Shown here: one piece after another, positions 4,949 through 28,770 of the stretch
How the letters are laid out: every line of letters begins with the position of its first letter
Numbering within the stretch: the stretch's first letter is position 1
Assembly (NCBI GenBank): GCA_021841005.1
Contig: JAKBVZ010000035.1
Location: 1 to 64,000, forward strand
Direction of reading: 5' to 3'
Source of the DNA: Actinomycetes bacterium
Lineage (GTDB): Bacteria; Actinomycetota; Acidimicrobiia; Acidimicrobiales; JAMCPL01
Length of the DNA: 64,000 bases
The notes under the pieces: model-generated
Told to the model about the DNA's origin: nothing
The model's database searches: none
Seen by the model: only the letters and a program-made list of their open reading frames with translations
Translations under genes and position numbers: made by a program

Positions 4949-5114
4949 AAAAAACGATAGGAATGACCGGCAAATTACGCAGGAATAGTCACTATTGTCG
5001 CGGTTGCAGGTGCTTACACCCCCACGGAACGCGAAGAGCCCCTTATGTTAGGTATGCCACGCCGTGGAGGCAGCACACATGCCGATGTGGAGATCAGCCG
5101 ACTTGCCGATGTGC

Positions 5115-5208
5115 TGATTAGAGGATTAGGCGATTAGGCACATTTTCGATTAGTCGATTAGTCGATTAGTCGATTAGTCAATTAGTCAATTAGTCGATTA
5201 GTCGATTT
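5115..5208. repeat. Array of 8-bp repeats (CGATTAGT) upstream of the TA module
   Basis: Seven full 8-bp units lie at 5147-5202 (five CGATTAGT, two CAATTAGT). Degenerate units extend in the same 8-bp register from 5115 (TGATTAGA, GGATTAGG, CGATTAGG, then a non-matching CACATTTT) and end in CGATTTGG. The array stops 14 bp before the GTG of the antitoxin gene, directly upstream of its GAGG ribosome-binding site. It therefore overlaps the probable promoter. Eight base pairs is not a codon multiple, so it is not coding. Confidence 0.85.
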
Positions 5209-5222
5209 GGCGAGGTGCTATA

Positions 5223-5504
5223 GTGGAATGCATGAGAACACTTACTCTGAACGAAGATGGGCGGATGACACTGCCTGCACCTATCCGTCACGCACTCGGC
5301 CTCGAGGGGGAGACCGAGATGGAGGTCGAGATCGACACCGATCATGATGCGATTATTCTTCGTCCAGCCGTTGTATTGCGGCGCGAAGACGCGTGGGCCT
5401 ACACGCCGGAGCACCGCGCACTGCTTGAACGTGCTCACGGCGACTCGCGAGCGGGCAGGGTCCGAAGTCTTTCCGAGGATGATCTTCGCTTGGCTGGTAC
5501 ATGA
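5223..5504 (+). CDS. AbrB/SpoVT-type antitoxin
   Basis: This 93-residue protein has an N-terminal swapped-hairpin AbrB domain (TLTLNEDGRMTLPAPIRHAL, then EVEIDTDHDAIILRP). That domain binds DNA as a dimer. A C-terminal tail with charged, probably flexible sequence (RAHGDSRAGRVRSLSEDDLR) is the usual toxin-neutralising part. The GTG start at 5223 has GAGG 7 nt upstream; an ATG at 5232 is possible. Its stop is 3 bp before the toxin start, so the two genes form an operon. AbrB-type antitoxins usually repress their own promoter, and the 8-bp array just upstream is the obvious candidate operator. Confidence 0.85.
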   Translation: MECMRTLTLNEDGRMTLPAPIRHALGLEGETEMEVEIDTDHDAIILRPAVVLRREDAWAYTPEHRALLERAHGDSRAGRVRSLSEDDLRLAGT

Positions 5505-5507
5505 TCG

Positions 5508-5783
5508 GTGGCCGCAAAGTATCGGTCACTTGATTTTACAGAGACCTTTCTCGAGACCTTTGCTTCCATGAACTTCTCCAAGAATGAACGTTCGGCCGTA
5601 CTCAAGGCGCTAAGGCTGATCGACGAGAACGAACAGCATCCTTCGCTTCGAGTCCACAAGCTGGCGGGAGACAGGGAAGGCTCTTGGTCGGCATCAGCAA
5701 GTCGAAGCATCCGGCTGACTTTCGAGCGGCTGGATGGCGGTCGTAGGAGAATGCTTACCTGCTCGAAGCATTATGACCGGTGA
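5508..5783 (+). CDS. RelE/ParE-superfamily toxin
   Basis: This 91-residue protein is predicted to be a ribosome-dependent mRNA interferase or gyrase-type toxin of the RelE/ParE fold. The C-terminal block HKLAGDREGSWSASASRSIR, LTFER, TCSKHYDR matches the YafQ/HigB-like pattern (HKL-G-WS-I-R-F and a terminal histidine-containing strand). The GTG start lies 3 bp after the antitoxin stop, giving tight coupling. Antitoxin-first order is typical of type II modules. The subfamily and target cannot be decided from the sequence. The short ORF that follows (5780-6031, overlapping by GTGA) is not convincingly coding. Confidence 0.8.
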   Translation: MAAKYRSLDFTETFLETFASMNFSKNERSAVLKALRLIDENEQHPSLRVHKLAGDREGSWSASASRSIRLTFERLDGGRRRMLTCSKHYDR

Positions 5784-6058
5784 CCAATCCCAGCCAGGCA
5801 GGAAACAATCTGGCTCCTGCGTTCGGTGTTCAACGATGTTCATGCTCCCATTTTCCCGGGGGAGCTAATACATTTGGCAAACTACGTAGTGCCAAACTAC
5901 GTAGTGCCATACTTTTGCAGATGAGTACCTTGACGGCTCAGGTGACCGGTATAGAAAACATTCCGAGCAGCGCAACTGCGTCTGTCGGCAACGTCACTGC
6001 AACTGGCGTTCGGAGCATCGCTTGGCCATAAAAGTACCGGAGTAGTACAATAAGTTCC
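5784..6058. other. Intergenic with twin palindrome (operator-like)
   Basis: Two tandem 15-bp copies of CAAACTACGTAGTGC occupy 5878-5907. Each contains the perfect 10-bp palindrome ACTACGTAGT (5881-5890 and 5896-5905), so two dyads sit 15 bp apart. This looks like a regulator-binding site ahead of the B12-domain operon. No gene was accepted here. Confidence 0.5.
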
Positions 6059-6217
6059 ATGAGGAAAAGTGAGGACATGCAGGCTCGAGACTTTCAGGGT
6101 GAGGACTTTCAGGGTGAGGACATGCAGGCTCGAGACTTTCAGGGTGATCCCGTCAAGCGGCTGCAGTCGCGATTTAGGTGGGCGCGGCGGCGCTGCGGCA
6201 GGAGCTTTCCAAGATGA
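6059..6217 (+). CDS. Small pentapeptide-repeat ORF
   Basis: This 52-codon ORF is absent from the ORF track because of its length. The translation starts MRKSEDMQARDFQGEDFQGE and holds five consecutive units of pentapeptide-repeat type (EDMQA, RDFQG, EDFQG, EDMQA, RDFQG; pattern x-D-[FM]-x-[GA]). A basic tail (RFRWARRRCGR) follows. The TGA at 6215-6217 overlaps the ATG of the next gene (ATGA), which suggests translational coupling. No good ribosome-binding site is seen. Pentapeptide proteins form a right-handed beta-helix but normally need many more repeats, so this may be a leader peptide, a relic or chance. The underlying DNA is a 45-bp period repeat. Confidence 0.4.
   Translation: MRKSEDMQARDFQGEDFQGEDMQARDFQGDPVKRLQSRFRWARRRCGRSFPR
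6071..6145 (+). repeat. Tandem repeat, 45-bp period with 15-bp subunits
   Basis: GAGGACATGCAGGCTCGAGA followed by CTTTCAGGGT occurs at 6071-6100 and again at 6116-6145. A 15-bp GAGGACTTTCAGGGT unit lies between them. All units are multiples of 15 bp and read as pentapeptides in the 6059 frame. Confidence 0.9.
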
Positions 6218-6633
6218 TCCGTCACTACAGGGTTGTCATAGCAAAACCGGGCCTGGATGGGCATGATCGTGGAGCAAAAGTGATTGCGAGGGCGCTCAGG
6301 GACTCGGGCTTCGAGGTGATCTACACCGGCTTGCATCAGACGCCCGAGCAGGTCGTCCAGGCTGTGCTCCAGGAGGACGCAGATGCACTTGGCCTGTCAT
6401 TGCTGTCAGGCGCTCATATGACCATAGTGCCGAAGGTGCTGAAGGGCCTTGCTGATAATGGCATTGACGACATAGTCGTGATGGTTGGCGGCATAATACC
6501 CGATGCAGATATAGAGAAACTGTCGGTGGCGGGAGTTGCCAGGGTGTTCACTCCTGGAGCGACGCTCCAGGGAGTGGCGGGATGGCTGGAGCAGGCGCTC
6601 GATGAGCGCGAGAAGGCCAGGGTCGTCAGCTGA
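6214..6633 (+). CDS. Cobalamin-binding protein, methylmalonyl-CoA mutase small-domain type
   Basis: This 139-residue stand-alone B12-binding domain is the C-terminal part of acyl-CoA mutases. The cobalamin motif D-x-H-x-x-G is seen in AKPGLDGHDRGAKVIARALR, followed by EVIYTGLHQTPEQ, ALGLSLLSGAHM, VMVGGIIPDADI and RVFTPGA. As a separate chain it would pair with a mutase large subunit encoded elsewhere, for methylmalonyl-CoA or a related acyl-CoA rearrangement. I place the start at the ATG at 6214, which has AGGAG upstream and overlaps the preceding small ORF as ATGA. The GTG at 6178 in the ORF track would add 12 unconserved residues and directly follows a stop. Location next to sucCD fits a propionate-to-succinyl-CoA route. 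Confidence 0.88.
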   Translation: MIRHYRVVIAKPGLDGHDRGAKVIARALRDSGFEVIYTGLHQTPEQVVQAVLQEDADALGLSLLSGAHMTIVPKVLKGLADNGIDDIVVMVGGIIPDADIEKLSVAGVARVFTPGATLQGVAGWLEQALDEREKARVVS

Positions 6634-6971
6634 CCACGGTCCAGTCAAGCGCAAGCCGCTGCGGCAACCATAGGCAACCATAGGGGGATGTCGGCAGGCG
6701 GCGTGATGACTGTGATGACTACCGTTCCGTAACACTTACAACAGAGTAACCGTTACGGTCTGTAGCTCCTCGAGCGGAGAGGTGCTGGCTATCTCTGACC
6801 CGGCGTTGGCTGACGGACGACCCTGCGGGCGTGCCAGGAAAGGTACTTGGAGTACCCAGTTTGCACCTCCGGTACTCAAGGGACAAGGATGGATGAGTAC
6901 GTTAGCAAACGGGCAGGCCGACAAATGGAAAGGTCAGCGAGCACGAAGACAAAAGAGCATTAGGAGCAGAC
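6634..6971. other. Intergenic upstream of sucC
   Basis: No gene is supported. A short repeat (GGCAACCATA twice near 6662-6685) and an inverted repeat GGTACT-TGG-AGTACC (6842-6856) are visible. The latter could be an operator for sucCD. No clear promoter boxes stood out. Confidence 0.4.
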
Positions 6972-8117
6972 GTGGATCTCTTTGAGTATCAGGGAAAACA
7001 GTATTTCGAGCGCTATGGTATTCCGGTTTCCAAGGGGGCGGTGGCCGATACCGTGGACGAGGCGGTCGAGGCTGCCGGGAGGGTGGGCTACCCGGTTGTG
7101 GTCAAGGCGCAGGTAAAGGTAGGTGGGAGAGGCAAGGCAGGTGGGGTCAAGCTGGCATCTTCGCCTGAAGAGGTGAAGGCACATGCCGGCAACATATTGG
7201 GCATGGACATCAAGGGTCACGTGGTCGAAAGGCTGTGGGTCGAGCACGCCACCGACATAGCCAAGGAATGGTACGCTAGCTTTACCCTGGATCGTGCGGC
7301 TCAGCTCCATCTTCTAATGCTCTCTACCAGGGGCGGGGTGGAAATCGAGGAAGTTGCAAAGAGCGAGCCTGATGCCCTTGTCAGGGTGCATGTGGATCCG
7401 TCGGAAGGTTTTACTGAGGGCCAAGCATCGCAGGCTGTTATGGATGCCGGTATTGATGACAGTGTACGTAGTGAGACAGCGGAACTGCTGACCAAGCTGT
7501 ACCGGTGTTTCGTAGAGGGCGATTGTGACCTTGCAGAGATCAACCCTCTGGTGCTTACCGCGGAAGGCAAGGTGCATGCTCTCGATGCAAAGGTTACCCT
7601 GGATGACAATGCCGGCTTTCGCCATCCTGAGTGGGCCGAGTTCGCAGCCACGGAGACCACCGACATCAGGGAGAAAAGCGCCAAAGAGCGTGGCTTAAAC
7701 TATATCGGCCTGAGTGGTGACGTGGGCATCATAGCCAATGGAGCAGGCTTGGCGATGAGCACCCTGGACGTGGTGAGTCAAGTAGGAGGATCTGCCGCTA
7801 ATTTCTTGGACATCGGAGGCGGCGCCAGCGCTGAGCTGATGGCATCGGCCCTGGAGCTCATCAATTCCGATCCCAGTGTGAAGTCCATCCTTGTCAACAT
7901 ATTCGGGGGTATCACCAGGTGCGACGAGATTGCCAATGGAATAGTGGAGGCCATGTCCAGGGTGGATCTGAAGTCGCCCATTGTACTGCGTCTAGATGGC
8001 ACCAATGCTGTCGCTGGAAGGGAGATACTGGCCGGCCACATCTCGGATCGCCTTGTTGCCGAGCGCACAATGCTGGATGCCGCCGCCAGGGCCGTCAGCC
8101 TTGCCGCGGGTAGGTGA
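6972..8117 (+). CDS. sucC: Succinyl-CoA synthetase (ADP-forming) beta subunit
   Basis: The beta chain of the TCA-cycle enzyme that interconverts succinyl-CoA and succinate with nucleotide triphosphate formation. The 381-residue length is normal. The N-terminal ATP-grasp domain shows MDLFEYQGKQYFERYGIPV, PVVVKAQVKVGGRGKAGGVK and CDLAEINPLVLT. The C-terminal CoA-ligase domain shows GLSGDVGIIANGAGLAMSTL, FLDIGGGAS and VNIFGGITRCDEIA, with the glycine-rich phosphate loop. The GTG start has AGGAG 5 nt upstream. It is followed 132 bp later by sucD, and the upstream mutase-domain gene could feed succinyl-CoA to it. Confidence 0.97.
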   Translation: MDLFEYQGKQYFERYGIPVSKGAVADTVDEAVEAAGRVGYPVVVKAQVKVGGRGKAGGVKLASSPEEVKAHAGNILGMDIKGHVVERLWVEHATDIAKEWYASFTLDRAAQLHLLMLSTRGGVEIEEVAKSEPDALVRVHVDPSEGFTEGQASQAVMDAGIDDSVRSETAELLTKLYRCFVEGDCDLAEINPLVLTAEGKVHALDAKVTLDDNAGFRHPEWAEFAATETTDIREKSAKERGLNYIGLSGDVGIIANGAGLAMSTLDVVSQVGGSAANFLDIGGGASAELMASALELINSDPSVKSILVNIFGGITRCDEIANGIVEAMSRVDLKSPIVLRLDGTNAVAGREILAGHISDRLVAERTMLDAAARAVSLAAGR

Positions 8118-8249
8118 TGGGTAGGTGAATCTGCGTATAGGTGAGCAGGCATGTAAGCGGCCGGAGTCCAAGCGACCGGGATCACACGGTCAACAGGCAT
8201 ACAGAGAGCAGCGTGAGCAGGGCCGGATGGTTGGCTGGAAAGGAGAATT

Positions 8250-9134
8250 ATGAGTATTTTTGTCGATGATACAACCAGGGTTGTGGTGCAGGGGCTCACG
8301 GGCAGCCAGGGGAGGTTCCACGGTTTACGCAACCGGGAGTACGGTACCAAGGTCGTGGCTGGGGTGACTCCTGGCAAGGGAGGTGCCGATGTGGACGGTA
8401 TACCGGTATACGACTCCATGAAGGAGGCCGTGGAGGCAACCGGCGCCGATACGTCGTTTGTAGTGGTGCCGCCTCCTGCCGCACCTGAGGCCATCCTGGA
8501 GGCCGCTCGGGCCGGTATCAGGCTCGTCGTGTGCATAACGGAGGGCATACCTGCCCAGGACGAGGCGCGGGTGGTCAACACGCTGAAAAGAGACTACCCG
8601 TCCACCAGGCTGGTGGGGCCGAACTGCCCCGGGATCATCTCACCTGGCATGTGCAACATAGGTATCACGCCTGGGGATATAGCGCTACCCGGCGGGCCGG
8701 TAGGTATCGTAAGCCGTTCGGGCACCTTGACTTACCAGGCGCTGTATGAGCTCTCTCAGCAGCGGGTGGGGCAGACCACGTGCATAGGGATAGGAGGAGA
8801 CCCAGTACCGGGCACCAGCTTCATAGACTGCCTCAGTGCTTTCGAGGCGGACCCGGCCACCAAGGCGGTAATGATGATCGGCGAGATTGGTGGATCGGCC
8901 GAGGAGAGTGCTGCCGAGTACATAGCATCTTCAATGACCAAACCGGTGGTCGCCTATATAGCCGGCCAGACTGCTCCTCCCGGCAGGAGAATGGGTCATG
9001 CGGGCGCTATAGTCTCCGGTTCTGCTGGTACCGCCAAGGGCAAGATGGAGGCCCTTGGGGCGGCCGGAGTCAGGGTGGCCAAGAACCCCACGGAAGCAGG
9101 GGAGGTCATGGTGGAGATCGTGCATGGTCTCTGA
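8250..9134 (+). CDS. sucD: Succinyl-CoA synthetase alpha subunit
   Basis: The alpha chain of succinyl-CoA synthetase carries the phosphohistidine and the CoA-binding Rossmann domain. Visible motifs are [15 protein letters not shown] (CoA-binding), [57 protein letters not shown] and, near the end, [20 protein letters not shown], with the histidine that is phosphorylated. The 294-residue length is standard. The ATG has a strong AAAGGAG ribosome-binding site. It acts as a heterodimer or heterotetramer with sucC immediately upstream. Confidence 0.97.
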
Positions 9135-9231
9135 TCCGGTGTGTACGGCGTTGCCGGCCGGATGGGAGATGATTGGTTGGAAGGTTGCCGAGCATCTGCG
9201 TTGGCACGAGTATGACTAAGGGTATGAGCTG

Positions 9232-11127
9232 ATGAGAGCGTTACTGTCGGTGTACGACAAGAGTGGCTTGGTGGAGCTGGCCGGAGGGCTGGTATCGCTT
9301 GGCTGGGATCTGGTGGCGAGTGGCGGTACCGCCAAGGCGCTTGCAGATGCAGGCATCATGCATAGCGATATAGCTTCGATGACCGGGTTCGGGTCGCTTC
9401 TTTCAGGCAGGGTGAAGACGCTGCACCCTGCAGTGCACGCAGGTATCCTTGCCGACAGGGACAATCCGGATCATATGAAAGATCTGGAGGAACAGGGGAT
9501 AGAACCGGTGGACTTGGTCGTGTGCAACCTCTACCCATTCGGCAGTGACCCTTCGATAGAGATGATCGACATTGGTGGACCTACCATGGTGCGGGCATCG
9601 GCCAAGAACTTTGCTCATGTCGGTATCATCGTGAGTCCACAGGACTACGGTCCTGTACTCGAGGAACTTGCCGGCGCCGGTAGGCTGTCGCTACAGACGC
9701 GCAGGAGATTGGCCCGGGCGGCATTTGCGCATACTGCAGCTTACGATGCTGCTATCGTGTCGTGGATCGATCAGGGGGGGCTGGAGAGCTCCGGCGCTGG
9801 TGGATGGGGTGGTCATAATGGCCATGATGCGGCGGAAGCGGCCGGCGCGGCTGGTGCAGGCGCTGGTGCAGGCGCTGGTGCAGGCGCTGGTGCAGGCGCT
9901 GAGGTAGGGACCGTTACTGCGATGGGTGCCGGCACGGTAGGGATTGGAAACCATGAGATCGCGGCAGGTCCGAGAAGCGAGCCAGGCGGGGTAAGCGAGT
10001 CACATCTGCCTCCCACTATCCACCTGAGCCTCGAGCTTGCCAGCAGACTTAAGTATGGGGAGAATCCCCACCAGCGCGGGGCGCGTTACCGTATTTACTC
10101 GAAACCAGGCTGGCTGGATACCACCGTGCAGCACGCAGGCAGGGAACTCTCTTATATCAATTTGTTCGATGCCGAGTCAGCCTGGTGGCTGGTCCACGAG
10201 CTGAAGAGCGCTGGAGCTTCTGGCGCAGGAAGTGGCAACGGCGGGGGTGTCGACGAGAGGAGTGGCATCGGTGGTGCTGGAAGCGGTAGCGGTGGGACAG
10301 AGGGTGGTTCCGCTACCGGGAACAGTAGTGGCGCCGGAACCGGGAGCGGTGACAGCAGGGGCGCCATTTCCACGGATACCGCGAGTATTGCGAGCGCCGT
10401 CATAGTCAAGCATGCCAATCCGTGCGGAGCAGCGCTTGGCAGTGATATGGCAGAGGCATACCGCCTTGCTCTCGAGTGTGACCCGATCTCGGCGTTCGGC
10501 GGGGTGGTCGCCCTTTCCGGTCATTGCGGGGTCGATGTGGCTGCAGCCATGGTGGACGCGCCACAGGCTGACGTGATCATTGCGTCCTCCTTTGATAGCC
10601 GGGCCATAGAGATGCTGGTGTCGAGGCGTAAGGCTACGAGGTTGCTGGAGTCGCCGCCTCCCGTTCGTTCACCCTTGGCTATACGTAGCCTGGGAGACGG
10701 CTTTCTTGTCCAGGATAATGACCTGGTTTCCCTGGATACTGAACGCTTCCAGGTTGTCACAGATATGGGGGTGCCTGATGGCGAATGGCCTGAAGTAAAG
10801 ATGGCCTGGATCGTCTGCGCCAGGACTACATCGAATGCGATTGTGGTGGTCAATCACGGCCAGGCGGTTGGTGTGGGAGCTGGCCAGCAGAGCAGGGTGG
10901 AAGCAGCAGAGATAGCAGTGAAGAAGGCGGGCGACAGGGCAGGGGGCGGGGTGGCTGCAAGTGATGCATTCTTTCCGTTCAGGGATGGTCTTGATGTGCT
11001 GGCCCGTGCCGGGGTCAGGGTTATTGTACAGCCGGGTGGATCGGTCAACGATGCGGCCATTGTCGAAGCGGCGAACGAACACGGTATAGCTATGGTGCTG
11101 ACCGGCGAGCGCCACTTCCGTCACTGA
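9232..11127 (+). CDS. purH: Bifunctional AICAR transformylase/IMP cyclohydrolase with low-complexity inserts
   Basis: This enzyme performs the last two steps of de novo IMP synthesis. The N-terminal IMP cyclohydrolase (MGS fold) shows ALLSVYDKSGLVELA, SGGTAKAL, GRVKTLHPAVHAGIL and NLYPF. The C-terminal transformylase shows LKYGENPHQRGARYR, YINLFDAESAW, VIVKHANPCGAAL, CDPISAFGGVVALS and the Lys-His region. The usual length is 510-530; this has 631. The excess lies in two in-frame inserts. One, around residues 186-255, is rich in Gly/Ala with a (GAGA)n run encoded by a 12-bp repeat. The other, around residues 327-383, is Gly/Ser-rich (SGAGSGNGGG and similar). Both fall in loops between conserved blocks, so activity is probably kept. 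folD lies just downstream and metF follows it, and both supply one-carbon folate. Confidence 0.95.
   Translation: MRALLSVYDKSGLVELAGGLVSLGWDLVASGGTAKALADAGIMHSDIASMTGFGSLLSGRVKTLHPAVHAGILADRDNPDHMKDLEEQGIEPVDLVVCNLYPFGSDPSIEMIDIGGPTMVRASAKNFAHVGIIVSPQDYGPVLEELAGAGRLSLQTRRRLARAAFAHTAAYDAAIVSWIDQGGLESSGAGGWGGHNGHDAAEAAGAAGAGAGAGAGAGAGAGAEVGTVTAMGAGTVGIGNHEIAAGPRSEPGGVSESHLPPTIHLSLELASRLKYGENPHQRGARYRIYSKPGWLDTTVQHAGRELSYINLFDAESAWWLVHELKSAGASGAGSGNGGGVDERSGIGGAGSGSGGTEGGSATGNSSGAGTGSGDSRGAISTDTASIASAVIVKHANPCGAALGSDMAEAYRLALECDPISAFGGVVALSGHCGVDVAAAMVDAPQADVIIASSFDSRAIEMLVSRRKATRLLESPPPVRSPLAIRSLGDGFLVQDNDLVSLDTERFQVVTDMGVPDGEWPEVKMAWIVCARTTSNAIVVVNHGQAVGVGAGQQSRVEAAEIAVKKAGDRAGGGVAASDAFFPFRDGLDVLARAGVRVIVQPGGSVNDAAIVEAANEHGIAMVLTGERHFRH
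9853..9900 (+). repeat. 12-bp tandem repeat inside purH
   Basis: Four perfect copies of GGTGCAGGCGCT, encoding Gly-Ala-Gly-Ala, form the core of the first low-complexity insert in purH. Confidence 0.95.
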
Positions 11128-11191
11128 CGCCTGGAACCGGCAGCCATCTCGGGGCGACTGGGGGACTGTGGCTTGTTAGTATGGGTGCACT

Positions 11192-12127
11192 ATGACTGCG
11201 AAGATACTTGATGGGGAATCCCTGGCCACCAAGATCCGCGAAGAGGTTGCGAACGAGGCGGCCAAGCTGCGCGCCCGGGGGATAATTCCGGGTCTCGGTA
11301 CCATACTGGTAGGGGACGATCCACCATCTGCACGATATGTGGCCATGAAACATGCTGATTGCGCAGAGGTGGGCATTGAGTCGATTCACGAGCACTTGCC
11401 TGCAGATATTACTCAGGATGACCTCATGTCTGCGGTCGAGCGTTTCAATTCCGACACTCGGGTGCATGCCTACCTGGTCCAGCTACCCCTTCCTGCCGGC
11501 CTTGACGAGGAAGAGGTGTTGCTTTCGGTGGATCCTTCAAAAGATGTGGATGGGCTGCATCCGGTGAATCTGGGGTTGCTGGTCATGGGCCATCCAAGGG
11601 TGTTGCCATGCACGCCCGCTGGGATACTGGAATTGCTCAGCGCCAATGGAATAGACCTAGCGGGCCGCCATGTGGTCGTGGTGGGTAGGGGGCTCACTAT
11701 CGGCAGGCCTCTGGCTCTACTTGCAGCATTGAAGCGTCCAGGATGCAACGCTGCCGTGACGGTGGTCCACACGGGGGTACCGGACATGGCCGAACATGTA
11801 CGCAGGGCCGATATTGTCATCGCGGCGGCCGGCCATGCCGGCCTGGTGACGCGGGATATGATCAAGCCCGGAGCGGTGGTGGTCGGCGCCGGAACCTCTT
11901 GGGAAGGCCGCAAGCTGCTTTCGGACGTAGATGACGCAGTGAGCGAGGTGGCTGGGTGGATCACTCCGAGGATAGGTGGAGTAGGTCCGATGACGAGGGC
12001 AATGCTGTTGCGCAATGCAATATCTGCGGCTATGCACACTGCGGCTATGCACACTGCGGCTATGCACACTGCGGCTATGCACACTGCGGCTATGCACACT
12101 GCCGTTGTGGATTCCAAGGCAACATAG
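11192..12127 (+). CDS. folD: Methylenetetrahydrofolate dehydrogenase/cyclohydrolase
   Basis: This bifunctional enzyme interconverts 5,10-methylene-, methenyl- and 10-formyl-THF and so supplies purine synthesis. The catalytic Tyr/Lys region is seen in PPSARYVAMKHADCAEVGI, then VQLPLPAGLDEEEVLLSVDP, KDVDGLHPVNLG, PCTPAGILELL, the nucleotide loop VVVGRGLTIGRPLALL and the C-terminal GVGPMTRAMLLRNAI. At the extreme C-terminus five copies of a 15-bp repeat add a (TAAMH)n tail, followed by VVDSKAT. The tail lies after the last conserved helix. There is no clear ribosome-binding site; a TAGTAT -10-like box ends 9 nt before the ATG, so the mRNA may be nearly leaderless. Confidence 0.95.
   Translation: MTAKILDGESLATKIREEVANEAAKLRARGIIPGLGTILVGDDPPSARYVAMKHADCAEVGIESIHEHLPADITQDDLMSAVERFNSDTRVHAYLVQLPLPAGLDEEEVLLSVDPSKDVDGLHPVNLGLLVMGHPRVLPCTPAGILELLSANGIDLAGRHVVVVGRGLTIGRPLALLAALKRPGCNAAVTVVHTGVPDMAEHVRRADIVIAAAGHAGLVTRDMIKPGAVVVGAGTSWEGRKLLSDVDDAVSEVAGWITPRIGGVGPMTRAMLLRNAISAAMHTAAMHTAAMHTAAMHTAAMHTAVVDSKAT
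12026..12100 (+). repeat. 15-bp tandem repeat in the folD 3' end
   Basis: Five perfect copies of GCGGCTATGCACACT add (Ala-Ala-Met-His-Thr) units to the FolD C-terminus. Copy-number change would alter tail length without changing frame. Confidence 0.97.
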
Positions 12128-12188
12128 CACAAGGCAACCAAGGCAACATAGCAGGACGTGAGAATATCATAGAGCGTTGGAATATGAC

Positions 12189-13097
12189 ATGACCAAGATA
12201 TCGGAACTGATAACCGGGGGAACGAGTTTCTCGGTGGAACTCTGGCCTCCAAGGAACCCCGATGCAGAGGCACGCCTAGAGCAGGTGCTTTCCGAGCTTG
12301 AACCTCTTCGTCCCACCTTTACCTCAATCACTTACGGAGCGGGTGGTTCCACCAGGGAGCGAACCCACGATCTGGTGGTGAGGATCGCGCGTGAGGGGGT
12401 GATGACTCCGATGGCCCACCTCGTCTGTGCCGCTCATTCGAGGGATGAGCTTACCGGGATACTGACCCGCTACAGGGACGAGGGTGTGGACAATATCCTT
12501 GCCCTGACAGGGGATCCGCCTCTTGATGCCACTGTTCCCCTAGCCCGAGGTGAATTGGCACATGCCATAGAGCTGGTGGAGCTGGCGAAAGAGGTGGGCG
12601 ACTTTTGCGTTGCGGTGGCAGCGCATCCCGAAGGCCACCCTCAATCCGGTGACATGGAGGCTGATCGCAATTACCTGGCCGAAAAGCTTGCTGTGGCTGA
12701 CTTTGCCATTACACAGTTCTTTTTCGACGCGGATCACTATTTCAGGTTGCTGGATGATCTCGACGCCAGAGGGCTGGATAAGCCGGTTTTACCAGGGATC
12801 ATGCCCGTAACCAGGGTTCGAACAGTATACAAGATGGCGGAATTGTCCGGCACACGGGTTCCGGGTGACCTTGTGGAGAGACTTGAGAAAGTGGCGGACA
12901 TCCCCGAGGAGGTCCGTCGGATCGGCATAGAGGTGGCCACTGACCTGGGAGCCAGGCTGCTGGAGGGAGGTGCTCCCGGCCTGCACTTTTACACCATGAA
13001 CGAATCTGTTGCGACTATCGAGATAGCCCGGGCCCTTGGCATCGGCGCGCAGCGGCCGGCGGAAGTTCCCGAAGAGGACGCGACGCGTGGCGCTTGA
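12189..13097 (+). CDS. metF: Methylenetetrahydrofolate reductase
   Basis: This FAD enzyme reduces 5,10-methylene-THF to 5-methyl-THF for methionine synthesis. The TIM-barrel family signatures include FSVELWPPRNPDAEARL (with the catalytic Glu), PTFTSITYGAGGSTRERTHD, AHLVCAAHSRDELT, ILALTGDPP, ADFAITQFFFDADHYFRLLDD, PGIMPVT and GLHFYTMNES. The start is taken at the ATG at 12189 (302 aa); the ORF track uses a TTG four codons earlier. It is separated from folD by a short region containing AAGGCAACA repeats. The sequence folD-metF groups one-carbon genes after purH. Confidence 0.95.
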   Translation: MTKISELITGGTSFSVELWPPRNPDAEARLEQVLSELEPLRPTFTSITYGAGGSTRERTHDLVVRIAREGVMTPMAHLVCAAHSRDELTGILTRYRDEGVDNILALTGDPPLDATVPLARGELAHAIELVELAKEVGDFCVAVAAHPEGHPQSGDMEADRNYLAEKLAVADFAITQFFFDADHYFRLLDDLDARGLDKPVLPGIMPVTRVRTVYKMAELSGTRVPGDLVERLEKVADIPEEVRRIGIEVATDLGARLLEGGAPGLHFYTMNESVATIEIARALGIGAQRPAEVPEEDATRGA

Positions 13098-13174
13098 AAA
13101 GATCGAACCCGCCTTGGGGCATGGTCGAGCCGCGTGTGCGAAGGCATGGCATCACCCGGCTGTCCACTGATTTC

Positions 13175-13183
13175 TGCTATAAT
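13175..13183 (+). promoter_or_regulatory. Extended -10 promoter for gyrB
   Basis: TGCTATAAT gives a perfect -10 (TATAAT, 13178-13183) with an upstream TGn extension. No good -35 is seen, as is usual for extended -10 promoters. The leader to the gyrB ATG would be about 105 nt. Confidence 0.5.
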
Positions 13184-13245
13184 GATATCAAAGGAAACTG
13201 TAGAGCCCGCTACGGGCGCGCTCACCGATCAAGCATGAGTTGTAA

Positions 13246-15339
<2,094 letters not shown>

Positions 15340-15619
15340 CGACATGAATACGCTCAGTGTTCCCAGCGTTACCGGTGTCCCGTCCCGTAAGCTCATGTCC
15401 TGCGCACCATGCTGCCCAAGACCGCTCGATGCCACGACTATTCCCACAATTATTCAATGCCACGCTACCTGTGCCGCAATTGGCATCGGCGCGAAATGCC
15501 ACGCAATGGACAGCAATGGGTATAGCCACGAATGACACGATTACGTTGGCGGGGTCGCTTGTGCACTCTCGCCCAAAGTTCACTTTTCCAATGAGAACTG
15601 ATAGGAGTTAAGAGGATAT

Positions 15620-18094
15620 ATGCCAGGTAGAGTAAGCGCCGGCGGAACTACGATGATGACAGGAGATACGCTTGGCGCGATAGAGCCCATTGACCTGCAG
15701 GAGGAGATGGAGAAGTCCTTCCTGGACTATTCGATGTCCGTCATCGTCTCGCGAGCACTGCCGGATGTGCGAGACGGGCTCAAGCCGGTGCACCGCCGCA
15801 TCCTGTTCTCGATGTATTCCCAGGGGCTACGCCCTGACCGGCCATACAGCAAGTGCGCAAGGGTTGTTGGTGATGTCATGGGTACCTACCATCCCCATGG
15901 AGACTCGGCCATTTACGATGCTCTCGCCAGGATGGTGCAGGAGTTCAGTTTGCGTTACCCGCTCATCGACGGGCATGGCAATTTTGGTGGCACCGGTCCG
16001 GATGAGGGACCCGCCGCCATGCGGTATACCGAGTCAAGGTTGCACGCCCTTGCGCTGGACATGCTGGCAGGTATTGATGAGGATACGGTCGACTTCACGC
16101 CCAACTATGACGGCACCAGCCAGGAGCCGGTCGTCCTTCCCAGCCGTTTTCCCAATCTACTGGTCAATGGCTCCCAGGGAATTGCCGTAGGCATGGCCAC
16201 CAACATTCCTCCTCACAACCTCGTGGAAGTGATAGACGCCACCATCGAGGTGCTCAGGAACCCGCAGGCCACCAGCGAAGAGCTCATGGGAATCGTGAAA
16301 GGGCCCGACTTCCCGACCGGAGCATCGATACTGGGCAGATCCGGTATCAGGGATGCTTACCGGACAGGAAAGGGATCCATCAAGATACGGGCGAAGGCCG
16401 AGATCGAGATGGTGAAGTCCACCGAACGGATCGTCGTTACCGAGATGGCCTACCAGACTTCGGTGGAGGCGGTCGAGAGGAAGATGGCGGATCTCATCAA
16501 ATCGGGGATGCTGGAAGGCATAGCCAGGTGGCAGAACGCATCAGCAGGCAAGAAGGCAAGGCTTATCATCGACCTCAAGCGGGATGCCAATGCCAATGTG
16601 GTATTGAACAATCTCTACAAGCACACGCCGATGCAGGTGAGCTTTGGTGTCAATATGGTGGCTCTGGTCGACGGCGTACCGCGTACGCTCGATCTGGCGC
16701 ATATGATCTCGTACTATGCATCTCACCAGATAGAAGTAATGCAGCGCCGGTCCCGCTTCCGGCTGGGTAAGGCCAGGGACAGAGAACACATCGTTGAGGG
16801 ATTGGTCAGGGCAATCGACATGCTCGATGAGGTGGTGGCGACGATTCGCGGATCCGAGGACAGGGCTGCCGCCAGGGAGGCGCTGATGGCGGATCCGTTC
16901 GGTTTCACCGAAATACAGGCCAATCATATACTGGACATGACACTTGCCCGGCTGACCAGGCTCGGTCGTGCCGAGCTTGATGAGGAACTTGGCCGTCTCC
17001 GTGAGACAATATCCTATCTCGAGGCGCTTCTTGCCGATCCTGTCAAGTTACGCGACGAGGTGATCAGCGATCTATCGACCATAAAGGAACGTTTTGGCGA
17101 TGCTCGCAGGACCTCTATCGAGAACGACCCAGGTGATCTGCTCGTGGAGGACCTGATAGAGGATGAGGACTTGGTCGTTACTCTCACCCAGGCGGGATAC
17201 ATCAAGGCTATGCCGGTATCGGCCTTCAAGAGCCAGGGCAGGGGCGGCAAAGGCGTCATGGGCACCAGGCTGAAAGAAGAGGACCTGATCACGTCTGTTG
17301 TCTACACGAGTTCCCATTCGTACCTGCTTCTCTTTACCAATCTGGGCCGGGTCTATCGCCTCCGGGGACACGAGGTTCCAGTAAAGGATCGTTCTGCAAG
17401 AGGTACTGCGATAGTCAACATCGTGTCCATGGATCCGGGTGAGAAGGTGGCGGAAATAGTCAGTGCCAAGGAACATTCTGGTGATGGCTATCTCATATTT
17501 GTGACGAAGCAGGGGCTGGTGAAGAAGACGAAGCTGGAGGAGTACGACAAGTCACGCCGTGAGGGCATCATAGCTATCACCCTGCGACCTGGTGACGAGC
17601 TTGTCAAGGTCATGGAAACCTCTGGAAACGATGAGGTGGTAATGTTCTCTTCCTACGGGAAAGGTATCCGATTCTCCGAGAGAGATGTGCGTTCAGTGGG
17701 CAGGGTCGCCGCAGGAGTGATAGGAATGCGGCTACAGCAAGGAGACACCGTGGTTGGAAGCGATGTCGTAAGTACTGGGAGCAATGTTCTGTTGATAACC
17801 AGTGCCGGCTATGGGAAGCGCACCAGCATAGATCAATTCAATACTCAAGCTCGCGGTGGCCAGGGAGTGAAGGCCATCAGGACCACCGCCGCCCGGGGGA
17901 AACTTGCGGGCGCTTTTCTGGTCGACATGGCATCCGAGATACTGGTTGTGTCTACGGGAGGTACTGTCATCCGTGTGGCGGTGGCGGATGTTGCCCGCCA
18001 GGGCCGCGATGCCACTGGCGTGCGTGTCATGCATCTCGGTGAAGGACAGAGCGTGGCGGCTATTGCCACGGTAACCGGTGAAGAGCAGGAGTAG
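15620..18094 (+). CDS. gyrA: DNA gyrase subunit A
   Basis: The cleavage-religation subunit of gyrase, 824 residues. The catalytic tyrosine is in [19 protein letters not shown]. The quinolone-resistance region reads [18 protein letters not shown], keeping the Ser and Asp of the drug-sensitive type. The GyrA box required for wrapping is seen as SQGRGGKG, followed by the six-bladed C-terminal pinwheel. The ATG at 15620 has an AAGAGGAT ribosome-binding site. A hairpin overlapping the stop codon probably terminates it against the convergent CPBP gene. The 280 bp between gyrB and gyrA hold no supported gene. Confidence 0.98.
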
Positions 18095-18104
18095 CTTCAC
18101 CGGT
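18074..18104. terminator. Bidirectional stem-loop between convergent genes
   Basis: ACCGGTGAAG pairs perfectly with CTTCACCGGT (10 bp) around an 11-nt loop that contains the gyrA stop codon. It lies between the convergent gyrA and CPBP genes. There is no U-tract. Confidence 0.5.
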
Positions 18105-18128
18105 CGACTTCCATCTCCAAGATTTGCA

Positions 18129-28024: not shown

Positions 28025-28770
28025 GTGTTATGGATGCAAGTGCCAATAAGGTCAATACGGTATTGCCGGAGAGCACGGTGAGGGTGGATCTAAGGATCAA
28101 TGGAAGGAACTACGTTCTTCCAGATATTTGGATAGGTGAGAACCTGCTCTATGTGTTGCGTGAACGCTTGGGTCTCCCTGGCTCGAAGAATGCTTGCGAA
28201 CAGGGGGAATGTGGCTCGTGTTCTGTGCTTGTCGATGGCATGCTTGTCTGTGCATGTCTGGTGCTGGCAGCAGATGCATCTGGGTGCGAGATAACAACCG
28301 TTGAGGGACTGGGCCGTACTCTTGCCGATCCTGCGGATTCGAGTGGGCAGGAGGAGGGGCAGACGCAGGGGCAGGGGCAGACGCAGGGGCAGGGGCAGGG
28401 GCAGACGCAGGAGGAGCGGCAGGGGCAGGGGCAGGGGGAGCAGGACCTTGCCGGGCCGACGATAATTGCATCGTCTATGCCGATGCCGCAATTGCAGGAT
28501 ATTAGCGTTACCGATGGCATGTCTTTCGAGGGAGCGCTATCCAGGATGCACCCCGTGCAACAGGCATTCGTCAACACTGGGGCGATACAGTGCGGGTTCT
28601 GCACTCCTGGGTTGGTGGTGGCGGTTGCTGACCTGCTGAGCCACAACCCCCATCCTTCGGCGTTGCAGGTTCGGGAGGCCATATCGGGTAACCTGTGCCG
28701 GTGCACCGGGTACGGTCGCATCTTTGCCGCTGTTCGCCGGGCCGAGGAACTACTTGCTGGAACTGCCTAG
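28021..28770 (+). CDS. Molybdenum hydroxylase [2Fe-2S] subunit with Gln/Gly repeat insert
   Basis: The small electron-transfer subunit. The N-terminal plant-type ferredoxin domain shows NACEQGECGSCSVLVDGMLVCAC. The C-terminal domain carries the second cluster: QCGFCTPGLVVAVADLL and GNLCRCTGYGRIFAAV. The usual length is about 160; this has 249. The extra residues lie between the two domains and start EEGQTQGQGQTQGQGQGQTQ, encoded by imperfect GGGCAG units. The start is the ATG at 28021, coupled to the FAD subunit; the ORF track runs back into that gene. The insert lies at a natural linker, so both clusters look intact. Confidence 0.93.
   Translation: MSVMDASANKVNTVLPESTVRVDLRINGRNYVLPDIWIGENLLYVLRERLGLPGSKNACEQGECGSCSVLVDGMLVCACLVLAADASGCEITTVEGLGRTLADPADSSGQEEGQTQGQGQTQGQGQGQTQEERQGQGQGEQDLAGPTIIASSMPMPQLQDISVTDGMSFEGALSRMHPVQQAFVNTGAIQCGFCTPGLVVAVADLLSHNPHPSALQVREAISGNLCRCTGYGRIFAAVRRAEELLAGTA
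28345..28443 (+). repeat. 6-bp (GGGCAG)-based repeat in the Fe-S subunit gene
   Basis: Imperfect repeats of GGGCAG/ACGCAG encode a run of Gln-Gly and Gln-Thr dipeptides in the linker between the two Fe-S domains. Confidence 0.9.

Follow-up and report, generated by a model that had tools for sequence, protein, structure and literature searches.

The analysed DNA (the window) is a stretch of 64,000 nucleotides from an Actinomycetes bacterium, in which an array of 8-bp repeats precedes two genes of a predicted toxin-antitoxin (TA) operon. The features of this locus are as follows:

5083..5114, forward strand: four candidate outer 5′ operator units, CGATGTGG AGATCAGC CGACTTGC CGATGTGC, assigned by the unit profile and in register (CGATGTGG starts at 5083, CGACTTGC at 5099 and CGATGTGC at 5107)
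5115..5202, forward strand: homogenised core of 11 units in which CGATTAGT predominates, delimited by lag-8 identity and TRF
5203..5218, forward strand: two candidate promoter-proximal operator units, CGATTTGG at 5203 and CGAGGTGC at 5211, assigned by the family consensus
5216..5224, forward strand: predicted extended -10 element, TGC-TATAGT, a consensus match in register with the units
5232..5504, forward strand: AbrB/MazE-domain antitoxin gene with an ATG start, assigned by PF04014, TIGR01439 and a start kept in the homologues
5508..5783, forward strand: RelE/YoeB/HigB-fold toxin gene with a GTG start, assigned by profile, predicted structure and gene order

The product of the first gene scored 24.8 bits against PF04014 (curated cut-off 24.7) and 29.6 against the NCBIfam model TIGR01439 (curated cut-off 28.3), and it carries a conserved tail, RPAVVLRREDAWAYTPEHR. 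For the toxin sequence no Pfam family was found above the cut-off. A toxin profile matched HigB with an E value of 0.001, and the AlphaFold model of the toxin (pLDDT 88.5) could be superposed on RelE, YoeB, YafQ and HigB toxins with a best TM of 0.75, so that, by its model, the toxin is of the RelE fold. The toxin gene always lies 3′ of the antitoxin gene in intact relatives. Given this gene order and toxin fold, the locus is a predicted type II TA operon that pairs an AbrB antitoxin with a RelE-superfamily toxin, in agreement with the AbrB/RelE-type assignment of the earlier note. Assignment to MazEF was rejected, as a MazF/PemK-type partner is absent and the partner has a RelE fold.

The earlier note had also described about eleven units in an exact 8-bp register over 94 bp. 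At lag 8, 70 of the 86 positions of the array are identical, as against a maximum of 46 in 20 dinucleotide-preserving shuffles of the whole 64-kb window taken over all periods from 2 to 59; the array is thus real and far beyond chance. TRF called it at 5116-5207, its G+C content is 35% (58% for the window), and no second such array occurs in the 2.45-Mb assembly. The exact register was confirmed, but the extent had been set too short, since the register goes on at both ends and comprises 17 units from about 5083 to 5218, with the 3′ end abutting the hexamer TATAGT at 5219-5224. Read 5′ to 3′, units 1 to 8 are CGATGTGG AGATCAGC CGACTTGC CGATGTGC TGATTAGA GGATTAGG CGATTAGG CACATTTT, and units 9 to 17 are (CGATTAGT)4 (CAATTAGT)2 CGATTAGT CGATTTGG CGAGGTGC, followed by TATAGT. 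The unit CACATTTT at 5139-5146 is strongly degenerate and leaves the register intact. One further outer unit may be represented by ACACATGC at 5075-5082.

We placed the antitoxin start at ATG 5232 because close homologues begin there; the GTG at 5223 is only a mechanical upstream start. Consequently, the distance between the array (its end taken at 5208) and the antitoxin start is 23 bp and not 14 bp as first reported. No consensus -35/-10 pair was found at the window promoter. In the homologous loci examined, TANNNT lies 6-7 nt 5′ of the ATG in all ten, is preceded by TGN in eight of the ten, and is directly adjoined by the last unit. As the antitoxin begins at ATG 5232, close behind the predicted extended -10, its mRNA is probably leaderless.

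Homologues of the gene pair occur within the genus and in further families of Actinomycetota, and none of this antitoxin-toxin family were detected on plasmids, phages or viral contigs. The related actinomycetotal loci carry 3-6 degenerate CAWTNTGS units with the same 8-bp spacing and the same phase as in the window, and the unit consensus of the family is C-A/G-A/T-T-N-T-G-C/G. For comparison of the promoters, regions upstream of the conserved ATG were taken from 12 homologues, leaving out the window itself, L014 (a near-copy of L013) and L016 (in which the start lies further away). Lag-8 identity in this set was 0.389, where 0.255 was expected (z 8.6), a value reached in none of 500 shuffles. 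The effective sample is smaller than 12, since the homologues are not fully independent; L024-L026 are alike near the -10, and so are L013, L044 and L046. Harmonics appeared at lags 16 and 24, and lag 9 was raised too (z 5.4). Random stretches of the same loci gave a lag-8 identity of 0.265 (sd 0.017), with a maximum of 0.324 over 2000 trials. The signal is confined to about 70 bp from the ATG, and the spacing to the ATG deviates in the relatives L016, L034 and L036.

The units can also be recognized by a profile. When a profile built from nine loci was applied to the tenth, the correct phase came out on top of the eight in every one of the 10 cases. Applied to the window, a profile from the ten other loci gave in-register scores of 8.2, 1.6, 6.2 and 7.9 for the units at 5083-5114; the remaining seven phases were negative there, and no equal score was found elsewhere in the 64 kb. 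As these outer units were absent from the original finding, they represent a prediction that was borne out. Of the promoter-proximal pair, CGATTTGG scored 9.0 and CGAGGTGC 2.6, their counterparts in the L012 alignment being CTATTTGT and CAAAGTGC. The predominant core unit CGATTAGT is no more than a moderate fit to the family consensus (score 3.0; 3.0-4.5 across the core units), and the core may therefore be weaker in binding than the outer units. Each unit is quasi-palindromic (CA-NNN-TG), and the unit profile has a dyad symmetry about position 4, with a mean complementarity of 0.515 vs. 0.14-0.31 elsewhere. Such symmetry would be expected if each unit were occupied by one two-fold symmetric antitoxin dimer.

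Comparison with the congener revealed a difference in copy number and in place. The promoters of the window and of the congener locus L012 align on either side of a single gap of exactly 72 bp, that is nine units, and about nine core units are missing from L012. Downstream, positions 6015 to 18109 of the window can be aligned piecewise at 88-91% with contig C32 of the congener G004, where no TA pair lies at the orthologous place; the TA pair of G004 is on contig C30 (81% over 5189-5783), and the candidate operator accompanies the TA genes to this different place. Because the block is missing from the orthologous place and the congener copy sits on another contig, the TA pair (block 5083-6015) is, judged by these alignments, mobile.

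Tandem arrays are abundant in this DNA, with 26 TRF rows in the 64-kb window. Two 15-bp arrays (5878-5913 and 6069-6147) lie between the toxin gene and a B12-binding gene, a perfect 12-bp array of 4.3 copies in purH (9850-9901) encodes an Ala/Gly run and is not among the congener arrays, and a 6-bp GGGCAG array of 15.5 copies occupies 28345-28437. The C-terminal end of folD holds a perfect 15-bp array of 5.3 copies (12024-12102); a different array, also of 15 bp (CCGATGCCATGTACT, 2.9 copies), is found at about the matching place in the folD region of the congener. As the lineage is rich in such arrays, expansion by slippage is in itself unremarkable here, and what deserves attention is an expansion inside a candidate operator with the phase kept.

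We consider the array to be, with a probability of about 0.78, an autoregulatory operator of the AbrB-type antitoxin that was expanded in 8-bp steps. The repeated site abuts the promoter and is conserved along with the antitoxin, and an operator role is probable because the relatives keep shorter arrays with equal spacing and phase. Of the two functions proposed in the earlier note, that of an operator for the AbrB-like antitoxin is thus well supported, as a prediction, by the period, phase and unit profile conserved in the homologous loci. We infer that the antitoxin, alone or with the RelE-like toxin, binds the array, with the toxin perhaps serving as co-repressor, a role known from other type II systems. 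One antitoxin dimer would occupy each quasi-palindromic unit, and dimers on adjacent units would form a cooperative row reaching into the extended -10; by covering the -10, this row would bar RNA polymerase from the presumably leaderless promoter. Since an 8-bp step is roughly three quarters of a turn of the helix, a row of dimers would be expected to spiral along the DNA. In this genome an operator that had about 5-6 units was probably lengthened by nine, in 8-bp steps, through slippage or unequal recombination. Such an expansion would leave the phase unchanged and might make repression stronger or buffer it; the long array could make the promoter-proximal units more fully occupied or act as a buffer for the antitoxin.

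It has to be weighed whether the whole array takes part in regulation. Only a few promoter-proximal units might work as the operator, while the long core would have arisen by neutral slippage, primed by the 8-bp period of the operator itself, and would leave regulation unchanged. We give this somewhat less than even odds: 3-6 units suffice in the homologues, the core units score only 3.0-4.5, the occurrence of the variant CAATTAGT in two adjoining units hints at recent duplication, and tandem arrays abound in the lineage, among them those of purH and folD that are not common to the congener. On the other hand, the register is held over the whole array, the degenerate unit at 5139 included, and since the family consensus can still be recognized in the outer units at 5083-5114, recent expansion of the core does not by itself account for the long array.

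Two further explanations fare worse. The omega heptad arrays double as operators and partition sites (PMC9499535), and the TA block is mobile and missing at the orthologous place of the congener; the array might by analogy be bound by another protein, such as a factor by which a mobile element carrying the TA genes is partitioned, replicated or moved. We regard this as improbable: in every family found the units are placed right at the antitoxin promoter, a second AbrB family shows the 8-bp spacing again, and no Rep or Par gene was noticed in passing beside the TA pair. A phase-variable promoter spacer, in which copy number would alter the distance between promoter elements and switch expression, was the other function suggested at the outset. 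Although a nine-unit difference in copy number from the congener does exist, this suggestion has very little left in its favor: the array, more than 100 bp long, is situated entirely 5′ of the extended -10, and no in-register -35 accompanies it; a length of 104-136 bp is far too great for a -35/-10 spacer; the extended -10 with its TG follows the array and shares its register; and 8-bp steps leave the promoter-proximal units as they are.

The 8-bp period extends beyond the family of the window. The promoters of a second AbrB family (MARTTLRAKGQLTLP) showed period 8 with other words at z 8.5, and at z 6.1 without the clearest member, in a period test that was post hoc, the family having first been noticed in the control set. 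Its members with 8-bp units are L033, L032, L029, L027, L106 and L133, and a RelE-like ORF (FAWLARFG.DFDALTP) comes next in the loci L027, L029, L031-L033 and L042. Among its plasmid relatives in cultured strains, the array is clear in Mycolicibacterium chubuense NBB4 plasmid pMYCCH.01 alone, where an 8-bp periodic stretch (L167:898-982) lies ahead of an AbrB antitoxin; the identities of 0.47, 0.41 and 0.38 at lags 8, 16 and 24 presuppose translation from the chosen ATG rather than from the annotated upstream start. In the relatives from Nocardiopsis, Alicyclobacillus and Sporolactobacillus plasmids the array is not clear, and some of the annotated starts are doubtful. The second-family RelE-like protein also occurs in about 72 Streptomyces plasmid records. 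In the eight examined (L169-L176) no AbrB ORF was found upstream of the RelE-like gene, and a mobF relaxase gene is near it in seven.

We also considered period 8 as a property common to all AbrB promoters, and this was ruled out, as only some subfamilies show it. No period 8 was detected in 67 other AbrB promoters (z 0.8) or in the E. coli mazE promoter, so the 8-bp grammar belongs to some AbrB families; 27 Phd/YefM promoters gave z 2.0. The period-8 families are perhaps those with RelE-type partners, the 67 having been taken together regardless of toxin partner. It is conceivable, and we put it forward tentatively, that AbrB antitoxins with RelE-type toxins share contiguous 8-bp quasi-palindromic units with family-specific words, forming an evolvable rheostat. 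One dimer per unit would then be set at a fixed 8-bp pitch round the DNA, with the recognized word varying by family, and the number of units would act as the rheostat, altered by slippage with the phase unharmed.

In its proposed working the array resembles two known systems and, by its sequence, belongs to neither. MraZ is an AbrB-superfamily repressor. The MraZ boxes of the dcw cluster are likewise direct repeats within the protein's own promoter; they differ in their 10-bp period ((AAAGTGKN3)3 in Mollicutes) and in that MraZ is no antitoxin. Identity with a MraZ box was rejected, as period 10 has a z of about 0 in the 12 homologous promoters and the gene is not mraZ. In the pSM19035 omega-epsilon-zeta TA system, 7-10 contiguous heptads cover the TA promoter and are bound cooperatively by omega (ParB-pSM), one RHH dimer per unit (PMC4803016; PMC9499535). 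Contiguous short repeats over a TA promoter are common to both, and the cooperative one-dimer binding known for omega is proposed here. Yet the heptads are 7-bp WATCACW repeats in direct and inverted orientation, and the RHH protein is no AbrB-fold antitoxin but a regulator in its own right; with its period of 8, its other unit and its AbrB-type antitoxin, the array is not an omega heptad array.

MazE and Kis are AbrB-fold antitoxins that repress their own operon over the -10 (PMC4803016), as is predicted here. Unlike the 8-bp direct repeats, their operators are palindromes (the 'alternating palindrome', regions I and II), and their toxin partner is MazF/Kid instead of a RelE-fold protein. AbrB-RelE pairs are known as a minority of AbrB partners, with 27 vs. 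312 for PIN and 97 for MazF (Makarova 2009, PMC2701414); the gene pairing is as here, and in the parts of that survey consulted no operator architecture is described. We found no description of 8-bp direct-repeat operators of AbrB antitoxins in the open-access papers searched.

Operators of AbrB-type antitoxins have been described as palindromes over the -10. If our reading is true, a pitch fixed at 8 bp while the words differ from family to family would mean that the geometry is dictated by the protein scaffold, leaving only the specificity to drift. With 3 to 17 units, the loci would form a natural series in which to study the effect of operator length on repression and toxin release, and the 8-bp pitch would offer a simple means of recognizing AbrB/RelE operons in unannotated genomes.
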